Assembly: GCA_016235665.1 (NCBI GenBank)
Contig: JACRJI010000016.1
Coordinates: 310,001 to 374,000 of the forward strand
Reading direction: 5' to 3'
Length of the DNA stretch: 64,000 bases
From: a candidate division TA06 bacterium
GTDB taxonomy: Bacteria > Edwardsbacteria > AC1 > EtOH8
The notes under the pieces were generated by a model. It was given only the letters and a program-made list of their open reading frames with translations, had not been told where the DNA came from and searched no databases. The position numbers and the translations under genes were made by a program. Of this stretch, positions 51,868-54,439 are shown one piece after another. Each line of letters opens with the position of its first letter. The first letter of the stretch is position 1.

Positions 51868-52434
51868 TTATCTTTTAATTTCACGGATCATTAAGCGGTT
51901 GGGATTTTCATCATCTTGTGGCCAACATAGGGGGTTATCAACGATATAACGTCTTATTTTATTGTATGATTTATCATTGCGGATGACGTGCTCGTAAAAC
52001 CGGCTCTGCCAAATGGCTGGTTCGTTTTTTGCCCGAACAACATTAATTTGTCTGGTTACCGCAGATTTATAGGATCGAACAATTGTTGACAATGACCCTG
52101 CCTGAGGTTTTCCAAACGATGCGCCTGATGGTAGGGACACGGCATGCCGTGTCTCTGAAGGGGGTTCGATAATTATAATAGTGCCATGAATGTGATTTGG
52201 CATTATGATATATTCGCCCAATAGAACATTTGTAAAATGTTGTGGTATTTCTCGCCAGGATTTGTCCGCGATCTCTCCATGTCCGTTCAATTCCATCCGG
52301 CTGTTAACGATTTTACCGAAAAGGCATGATCTGCCGTGGGTGCAGATTGTTATGAAATATGCGCCTTCCTGGGAATAATCATATTCCGGCAGGCGGATGG
52401 ATTTTCTGTGGAATTTAGGGTTGTTAATAGACAT
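51868..52434 (-). CDS. REP-associated tyrosine transposase (RAYT, Y1/HUH type)
   Basis: A 188-residue single-strand DNA transposase of the RAYT/TnpA_REP family, which is linked to the spread of short palindromic REP elements. HUH motif in IMPNHIHGTIIII, catalytic Tyr in QSRFYEHVIRN, and the N-terminal IRLPEYDYSQEGAYFITICT are intact. The start chosen is the ATG of MSINNPKFHR; the frame is open upstream but crosses a palindrome and is not conserved-looking. Palindromic copies lie at 52133-52156, inside the gene (residues about 93-101, TRHAVSLP), and at 52461-52480, 27 nt upstream of the start, so the gene carries its own substrates. Confidence 0.93.
   Translation of the reverse strand: MSINNPKFHRKSIRLPEYDYSQEGAYFITICTHGRSCLFGKIVNSRMELNGHGEIADKSWREIPQHFTNVLLGEYIIMPNHIHGTIIIIEPPSETRHAVSLPSGASFGKPQAGSLSTIVRSYKSAVTRQINVVRAKNEPAIWQSRFYEHVIRNDKSYNKIRRYIVDNPLCWPQDDENPNRLMIREIKR
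52133..52156. repeat. REP-like palindrome inside the RAYT gene
   Basis: AGGGACACGGCA/TGCCGTGTCTCT, self-complementary over 24 nt with a single G-T deviation, preceded by GT (a CCCTAC tail when read on the minus strand). Same core as the copy at 52461-52480 but in the opposite orientation. Confidence 0.85.
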
Positions 52435-52460
52435 ATCGTTGTAATTGGCAATTCCCCATA

Positions 52461-52480
52461 GGACACGGCATGCCGTGTCC
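52461..52480. repeat. REP-like palindrome upstream of the RAYT gene
   Basis: A perfect 20-nt palindrome with arms GGACACGGCA and TGCCGTGTCC and tail CTACAG, on the plus strand. It lies between the RAYT start and the stop of the sulfatase gene. Confidence 0.88.
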
Positions 52481-52486
52481 CTACAG

Positions 52487-54439
52487 TTATCTGACGTCCT
52501 CCTCCCTACATATCCTGTCCCGGGCAATGGCATACGAGGCCTGCTGGATATAAGCCCGCAGATACTCAAACATTTTCCCGGCTTCTTCCGGCTTCGCTGT
52601 TTGCAGGTCATTCTTAAATGCACCGTCGTTCCTGTGATTATACAAGCCGTTGATCTTCTCCAGGTCGCTGACCAAAACCAGCCGGTCGTCGAAAACGGCG
52701 AACTCCGCCCCGTGGCGCACCACCGCGTAATGCTCCTTTTTGCCGGAGATCAGCGAACTGCCCATGGAGGCGTGGGTGGTAGAGAGGTTCAGCAGGTCCA
52801 GAAACGTGGGCATAATGTCCACCTGCGAACCGATGCCGTCCTCCCGGGCCGGCGCCAGGCCTTGAGGCCGGTAGATCAACAACGGCACCTGGAAGATGGA
52901 GGCAAAGTCGTTGCGCATGGAATGGTAGGGATGGTCGCCGGTTATTATGAATACTGTGTTTTCATACCAATCCTGGTTCCGGGCTTGTTCAAAAAACCTT
53001 TTAAGACTGTAGTCGGAATATCGCAAAGCCCGCCGGAACCTGTCATCATCCTTGAACTTTGAAAACAAAGCTTCGCGGTAACTTGGTATCTTGAGGGGAT
53101 CATGCGGCGACAGAGAGAAGATCACCGAGGCGAATGGTTTCTTGAAACTGTTCATCCGCGACAGGGCGTCCAAAAAGAACTCCTCGTCGTAAACCCCCCA
53201 GGTGCCGTCCTGCAGGGAGTCGGCCAGTCCGGGAAAGTCCTCCTTGCCGTAGTATTTCTGGAACCCGGCGGTGCGGGCGTAGGCGTCAAAGCCCATGGAG
53301 CCCACCTTGGCCCCGTGATGGAACGAGGTGGTGTAGCCCCGCTTTAACAGGATGTGCCCCAGCCCCAGCACCCGGTTCATCTCGGCCCGTGAGCCGATGA
53401 AAGAGTTGTTGTTGTAGAAGGCCGGGATGGATGTCAAAATGGCCGGCACCGCCTCCAGCGAACGCTGAGAGTTGGCCATGAAGTTGGTGAACAGCAGACC
53501 TTGGACGGCCAGACTGTCGAAGAAGGGCGTGGCGCTTGGCCTGCCCGGGGCCGAGCCCACCTGCCCGGCCGACCAGCTTTCCATGATGAAGATCACCAGG
53601 TTCAGCTTCTTCTCAGGACTCGGGAATTGCTTTTGTCTTAAGAAGGGATACTCCCGGTCCGCCATTGTTTCATTGGGGTCGCGGAGCATCGTCTCCACCA
53701 GTTCCTGAGCCTGCTCCCGGGGCATGAACTGGAATTCCGCCAGCTTGGGCTGGCTAAGGCTGCGCAGCACGGTGAAGGTGGAGTTGAGGGCCAGGTAACC
53801 CGCCGCCCGGCTCTCGCTAAAGAAGGCGTGATTCTGCCGGATGGGCTTGGACTGCAGGCCGCCCCGGATCCCCAGCACCGCCAGCCCGACGATCAGGACC
53901 AGGCTTAGGGATTCGGTGAATGGGTTGAATTTATAAACTATCTTTTTATCCAGCCGGGTAAAGAATTTAAGGCTGGAGTATATGAACAAACCAGAGAGCA
54001 CTGCTAAAAGCAGGAACAGCGGCCAGTAACCCCGGACCAGGCTGGGAACCATGTCCATCGTTTCGCGGGGCATGGCAAACAGCTCGAACATCAGGCGGCG
54101 CTGGGTGAAGGCGTAATAGCCGTAATCGGTCAGGTTGACGATGAAGCCCGGCATGTTCACCAGCCAGAAAAGCGCCAGCATTGTTTTGGAATACCATTGA
54201 TACCTCCCGGGGAACCCCGGCAGGTTGTACAACAGCAAAATGACCCCGTTCAGCATCAGCAGGGCCGAGAGGTCGAAGCGCAGGCCGTAGACAAAGGCCC
54301 ACAACACCTGCCCGGCCGGCACGCCGGCAAAGTACTGGCGGTTGGCGACCAGGAACCCCAGCCGCAGGAGTTCATAGCAGACTAACAGGTATATGAACCC
54401 AGCCAGGCTGATTTTAAGCGGCTTTGGGATAATCTTCAT
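52487..54439 (-). CDS. LtaS/sulfatase-family membrane phosphotransferase
   Basis: A 650-residue protein: five membrane helices (about 8-30, 45-70, 85-105, 130-160, 180-195), then an extracytoplasmic alkaline-phosphatase/sulfatase-like domain (about 280-610). Seen: LNLVIFIMESWSAGQVG with the metal Glu, NSQRSLEAVPAILTSIP where the nucleophile is expected (Ser here), IFSLSPHDPL, FIITGDHPYH and the metal Asp/His pair. The family includes LtaS and OpgB-like enzymes that transfer glycerophosphate or phosphoethanolamine to envelope glycans. In a presumed diderm, an envelope-glycan role is likelier than lipoteichoic acid. It ends next to a RAYT palindrome. Confidence 0.88.
   Translation of the reverse strand: MKIIPKPLKISLAGFIYLLVCYELLRLGFLVANRQYFAGVPAGQVLWAFVYGLRFDLSALLMLNGVILLLYNLPGFPGRYQWYSKTMLALFWLVNMPGFIVNLTDYGYYAFTQRRLMFELFAMPRETMDMVPSLVRGYWPLFLLLAVLSGLFIYSSLKFFTRLDKKIVYKFNPFTESLSLVLIVGLAVLGIRGGLQSKPIRQNHAFFSESRAAGYLALNSTFTVLRSLSQPKLAEFQFMPREQAQELVETMLRDPNETMADREYPFLRQKQFPSPEKKLNLVIFIMESWSAGQVGSAPGRPSATPFFDSLAVQGLLFTNFMANSQRSLEAVPAILTSIPAFYNNNSFIGSRAEMNRVLGLGHILLKRGYTTSFHHGAKVGSMGFDAYARTAGFQKYYGKEDFPGLADSLQDGTWGVYDEEFFLDALSRMNSFKKPFASVIFSLSPHDPLKIPSYREALFSKFKDDDRFRRALRYSDYSLKRFFEQARNQDWYENTVFIITGDHPYHSMRNDFASIFQVPLLIYRPQGLAPAREDGIGSQVDIMPTFLDLLNLSTTHASMGSSLISGKKEHYAVVRHGAEFAVFDDRLVLVSDLEKINGLYNHRNDGAFKNDLQTAKPEEAGKMFEYLRAYIQQASYAIARDRICREEDVR

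Follow-up and report, generated by a model that had tools for sequence, protein, structure and literature searches.

A palindrome of REP type inside a RAYT gene assigned by its motifs to TnpA-REP subclass 2.4, and its association with helix αC of the predicted protein

A RAYT gene of the window (the whole stretch of 64,000 nucleotides that was analysed) carries one palindrome within its reading frame and a second one just upstream of its start. The locus raises the question of whether the hairpin in the gene is the one handled by the enzyme that the gene encodes, and whether it is maintained as DNA. Such an in-gene hairpin bears on how RAYT proteins recognise their REP families and on why single-copy RAYT nucleases persist. 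The features discussed here are the following:

51868..52434, minus strand: RAYT / TnpA-REP (subclass 2.4-like) coding sequence, ATG to stop, 188 amino acids
52186..52200, minus strand: HUH motif PNHIH, residues 79-83, with H81 and H83 invariant
52132..52155, minus strand: codons 94-101 (ETRHAVSL), which the in-gene palindrome encodes; modelled as a disordered loop
52036..52092, minus strand: helix αC/α3, residues 115-133, whose sequence tracks the hairpin across homologues
51946..51948, minus strand: Tyr163 in YIVDNP, putative catalytic tyrosine, invariant; assigned by the YIxNNP motif given in the available text of PMC6006769
52131..52156, plus strand: in-gene REP palindrome GTAGGGACACGGCATGCCGTGTCTCT, with the GTAG foot intact on the plus strand
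52461..52484, minus strand: upstream REP palindrome GTAGGGACACGGCATGCCGTGTCC (minus-strand reading), with the GTAG foot on the minus strand

The open reading frame yields a product that starts with MSINN and ends with KR. The initial annotation took it for a RAYT transposase, and this identity is upheld: the protein matches REP_Tyr_transpos (NCBIfam) with E 3e-18 and 66 bits, under the curated 80-bit cut-off, and Pfam Y1_Tnp slightly below its cut-off. The interval proposed at that time, which extended to 52490, takes in the gene plus the upstream palindrome, the gene alone being 51868-52434. An AlphaFold2 model (pLDDT 83.8, pTM 0.80) has as its closest PDB fold 4ER8 (E 2e-7, probability 1.00), the E. 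coli TnpA-REP in complex with REP hairpin DNA. NHIH (residues 80-83) lies inside an invariant block and fits the HUH motif NH[IFV]H of TnpA-REP subclass 2.4; the WQ motif of the subclass is present as the invariant W142 and Q143; and in YIVDNP the Y, I, N and P agree with YIxNNP while one N is replaced by D, Y163 being invariant in A2. The variable insertion between β3 and αC corresponds in the model to a disordered stretch, residues 95-106, located between the strand 81-88 and the helix 115-133. It is the sole internal segment of low confidence (pLDDT < 50) and takes in the hairpin-encoded peptide. The other two traits of the subclass, a gene flanked by a GT[AG]G-footed REP and a REP inserted in frame, are also found. 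Motifs and predicted anatomy hence support assignment of the gene to subclass 2.4.

In-frame insertions of REPs in tnpA-REP, between HuH and Y, were described by Quentin et al. 2018 for this subclass (PMC6006769, available text), together with "double foot" GTAG...CTAC REPs and the suggestion that the insertion has little effect on activity. Our locus shares with that description NHIH, WQ, the variable β3-αC insertion, the in-frame REP and double-foot hairpins, and both families are scattered over many phyla; the window differs by its YIVDNP and by the loss of one foot of the in-gene copy. An in-gene hairpin is therefore already a published hallmark of the subclass, and not the individual oddity for which it was initially taken. 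In the available part of the same article we found no report of DNA-level maintenance of the hairpin nor of its association with αC; these two points may be new additions. A coevolution of RAYTs and REPs, seen at the level of whole trees, had been put forward earlier (Nunvar et al. 2010, PMC2817692).

Both palindromes reported at the outset, one in the reading frame and one upstream, were recovered. The sequence GGACACGGCATGCCGTGTCC matches at 52135-52154, inside the reading frame, with one mismatch, and exactly at 52461-52480, upstream, while 100 dinucleotide-preserving shuffles gave an expectation of 0 matches; these shuffles, together with the synonymous shuffles of homologues described below, rule out a chance palindrome. 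Together with its foot, each copy is one half of a perfect inverted repeat of 23 nt (52131-52153 and 52462-52484, 308 nt between), the in-gene GTAG being on the plus strand and the upstream GTAG on the minus strand, in keeping with the opposite orientations already noted. The in-gene copy does encode residues 94-101 (E-TRHAVSL) as had been read, and its opposite foot is decayed, with CTGA for CTAC. The upstream copy precedes the ATG, as stated, the gap being 26 nt where 27 had been counted. Folded as single-stranded DNA, both hairpins did better than 200 of 200 shuffles. A transcription terminator at the palindromes was considered and rejected, the sole terminator-like match in the region being elsewhere and no more than shuffles yield. 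The hairpins matched no family in a search of Rfam, and a known RNA family was likewise rejected.

The frame of the gene is also open upstream of the ATG (window 52435-52623), through the second palindrome, with a GTG start at 52623. The orthologue L011 has a similarly open frame (L011:1414-1500), where the upstream palindrome would encode VGTRHAVSLLRG. If used, the distal start could place both hairpins in one frame in the window and in L011.

The in-gene hairpin recurs throughout the family. The genome has five RAYT paralogues; the same loop holds an in-frame palindrome in every one of them, each time of a different type (CACGGCATGCCGTG, CACGATGCATCGTG, CGACCGGCCGGTCG, ATGGTTTGAAACCAT and a repeated CGAGGTCACCTCG). 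An in-frame palindrome was found in this loop in 145 of 174 homologous genes, which rules out a one-off self-insertion in this genome. These genes comprise a first set of 111, from relatives and from GTDB species of many phyla, and an independent set of 63. In the first set 93 of the 111 genes carried it, versus 7.8 expected from synonymous shuffles, in which these loop peptides were re-encoded with the codon usage of each gene, and 13 had a palindrome elsewhere in the reading frame; with arms of at least 12 the figures were 49 in the loop versus 3. The independent set gave 52 of 63, with 4 elsewhere in the frame. The E. coli rayT reading frame had no palindrome of this kind. The remaining 29 of the 174 genes have none in the gene, so the hairpin is not essential, and insert-free genes such as L065, L199 and L203 have a shorter loop and look intact. 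In one paralogue (G000:C8, L009:1048-1815) repeated GGGCGAGGTCACCTCGCCC hairpins have lengthened the loop to about 90 codons, and the hairpin directly upstream of that gene is of another type, GGGGTAATTCATGAATTACCCC.

The palindrome could have been retained only because it does not break the frame, as first suggested, or because the peptide that it encodes is selected. At identical residues, codon identity was 85-98% inside hairpins versus 45-78% outside, according to protein identity (172 pairs of genes that share five or more identical residues within both hairpins), a contrast that partly follows from demanding a palindrome in both genes. In the orthologue trio L005, L011 and L012, third positions were changed in 0 of 8 cases in the hairpin and in 17-41% elsewhere, which on its own is modest evidence. 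As judged from these codon comparisons, the palindrome itself persists, beyond peptide and frame alone; being in frame is thus insufficient as an explanation. The one fact in favour of peptide selection with an incidental palindrome is that TRHAVSL is kept in the three orthologues. Between lineages and frames, however, the hairpin-encoded peptides differ completely, they are disordered in the model, and the synonymous shuffles reject the idea, which makes it barely conceivable. Homologues with the same residues written in non-palindromic DNA, which would have spoken against the first reading of the locus, were not found; the two closest, 90% and 78% identical, have these residues written in the same palindromic DNA.

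The GTAG foot lies in frame 0 in 55 genes and in frame 1 in 37; the frame that gives a TAG stop is used in none. One and the same hairpin core is read in frame 0 in some lineages and in frame 1 in others, and hence the loop has been entered more than once. That the in-gene copy arose by self-targeting is plausible from such sequence comparisons, since what is inserted is a hairpin of the type that belongs to the gene, and since the same hairpin sits in the same loop in two frames; this part of the initial proposal stands as a plausible origin, no insertion event having been observed.

The in-gene hairpin is particular to each RAYT lineage and tends to resemble the ones that flank the same gene. 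Similarity of at least 85% between in-gene and flanking hairpins (no more than about 350 nt from the gene) was found in 37 of 67 cases, the permutation mean being 1.8 and the maximum 8 in 5000 permutations. With the match at the locus far above permutation and the same pair present in the orthologues L011 and L012, the earlier proposal that the two palindromes are the REP family of this RAYT holds. Some flanking hairpins are unlike the in-gene one; for instance, a GTAG hairpin GTAGGGATATGGTGAGCCATGTCCCTAC about 40 nt upstream of the C10 RAYT (G000:C10:114726-114753) differs from the one internal to that gene.

Copies are few. The window palindrome has 4 exact copies in the 2.7 Mb genome, 2 of them at this gene, whereas usual REP abundance is > 100 copies per genome (PMC2817692, available text); the hairpin of a second RAYT has two and that of a third, the C11 RAYT, one, the in-gene copy. 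Strict symmetric GTAG hairpins number 7 in the genome, which rules out a genome saturated with REPs, and three of the 7 are within RAYT reading frames. In a hand count over ten genomes of the family, RAYT reading frames held about 17 of the 87 symmetric GTAG hairpins. Near the dispersed copy of the window palindrome, on G000:C3, there are two GGGCGGGTTTCAAACCCGCCC palindromes, identical to each other and 1.8 kb apart (L002:952-972 and 2785-2805); this hairpin type is that of another RAYT lineage.

Similarity of helix αC was associated with hairpin similarity when N- and C-terminal similarity was accounted for (partial r 0.42, against a permutation maximum of 0.11); the same association was 0.07 for the N-terminal part and 0.09 for the C-terminal part. 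When genes were held out, choosing the most similar gene by the 19-residue helix gave a hairpin at least 0.8 similar in 44% of cases, with a ceiling of 67%, and other regions reached 8-10% (paired p 1.7e-6 versus the helix). Sliding windows gave a single peak, at αC; the HUH strand, near the other side of the hairpin, gave no signal, its strong conservation limiting the signal possible. The top covarying helix positions (0, 4, 8, 11 and 12) lie on one face. In a group of 23 genes that lack an in-gene hairpin, the flanking hairpins were still predicted by the helix (0.635 versus 0.484, permutation maximum 0.572). When pairs were masked by identity outside the helix, the helix gave 0.668 versus 0.529 for the best other window with pairs above 50% masked, 0.530 versus 0.484 with pairs above 45% masked, within the permutation range (maximum 0.547), and no useful signal was left with pairs above 40% masked. 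The lead of the helix shrinks with divergence, and therefore phylogeny and recognition are incompletely separated. In E. coli TnpA-REP, αC/α3 contacts the REP through K82 (PMC8266576).

We consider that the gene is probably a subclass 2.4 REPtron, a HUH/Y1 single-strand nuclease gene that carries its own cognate REP hairpin, with an inverted second copy upstream. To its identity and anatomy we add, as what we infer, a scheme of recognition, self-insertion and selection. By analogy with E. coli TnpA-REP, the enzyme would recognise the hairpin as folded single-stranded DNA by means of the GTAG foot and helix αC. Copies in and near the gene would have been placed by the enzyme's own cut-and-join activity. 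The disordered loop between the HUH strand (β3) and the putative hairpin-reading helix αC would have accepted them, the survivors being those in the frames without a TAG stop. The gene would then always travel with a working substrate copy, so that enzyme and hairpin may stay matched after transfer or after drift of the helix specificity. E. coli TnpA-REP and its REPtron (4ER8; PMC8266576) have in common with the present system the fold, GTAG-footed hairpins near the gene and an αC/α3 that adjoins the HUH strand, but differ by having no such in-gene palindrome, a short loop after the HUH motif and REPs that are bulged and numerous. A further step, that RAYT genes of subclass 2.4 are self-labelled, each with its own recognised hairpin, functionally kept and read by one face of αC, is one to which we give slightly less than even credence. 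Several points weigh against the REPtron reading: cleavage and binding are predicted from sequence and model, the lead of the helix narrows once the comparison is restricted to pairs that share less than 45% identity outside it, the in-gene copy of the window is decaying at one foot and, as stated, flanking hairpins may differ from the in-gene one.

A tolerated passenger would be one alternative: REPs would insert widely, the loop would accept them without effect, and copies would be intact because they are recent or often replaced. This is near the published view of little impact on activity (PMC6006769, available text) and agrees with the disorder of the loop, with the intact look of the insert-free genes and with the repeated insertion implied by the two frames; REPs within reading frames of other genes are also known (PMC3733652). 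Those elements, which like the Rickettsia palindromic elements are in-frame palindromes in coding sequences, sit in unrelated genes, whereas here they occupy one fixed loop in a gene whose own product is probably the enzyme that acts on them. There are far too few copies for chance insertion, the C11 hairpin occurs nowhere in its genome but in the RAYT gene, about a fifth of the hand-counted hairpins fall in RAYT reading frames, and codon conservation holds among same-frame homologues. We regard the passenger as unlikely. An equally unlikely explanation, which concerns the recognition claim only and is compatible with the other readings, is linkage: about 15-25 codons separate hairpin and helix, and inheritance or gene conversion of both as one block could give part of an association that weakens with divergence. 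On the opposite side of the hairpin, the nearby HUH strand has no signal, subject to the limit set by its conservation; the single face of the covarying positions and the prediction of hairpins outside the gene, where none is inside, also argue against linkage. An RNA-level element, in which the hairpin would fold in the RAYT mRNA and limit translation or stability, or be bound by the protein for autoregulation, is quite improbable. The palindrome in the transcript would fold as RNA too (the computed fold being that of DNA), the second hairpin is just upstream of the ATG, and mRNA structure regulates some transposases (PMC8450116, available text). Yet these are perfect DNA palindromes with GTAG/CTAC feet that match REPs outside the gene, Rfam has no match, and RNA function alone leaves the tracking between hairpin and αC unexplained.

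If the in-gene hairpin is the target of the enzyme, as the REPtron reading holds, many public genes would carry their own specificity written inside, and a natural set of hairpin-specific single-strand nucleases would be at hand for study. If the genes are self-labelled, the RAYT-REP recognition code could be learnt from gene sequences alone. The association of helix and hairpin makes RAYT specificity testable by helix swaps.

A natural deletion was seen in a genome of the same genus, with the same neighbour genes (G001), which holds a RAYT remnant at L024 (G001:C99:9844-13146, around 1780-1815). Homology runs in from the 3' side as far as the in-gene palindrome, a single chimeric palindrome remains, and about 326 bp between the in-gene and upstream palindromes are deleted, with about 50 nt of unmatched sequence ahead of the next gene. 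Recombination between the palindromes, replication slippage or action of the enzyme could have produced it. In another genome (G049, L031:1297-1899) a gene that resembles a RAYT gene but belongs to a clearly different class has two hairpins of TGCGCCTGAGGTCAGGCGCA type in its reading frame and similar ones flanking it; in-gene hairpins may thus not be confined to subclass 2.4.
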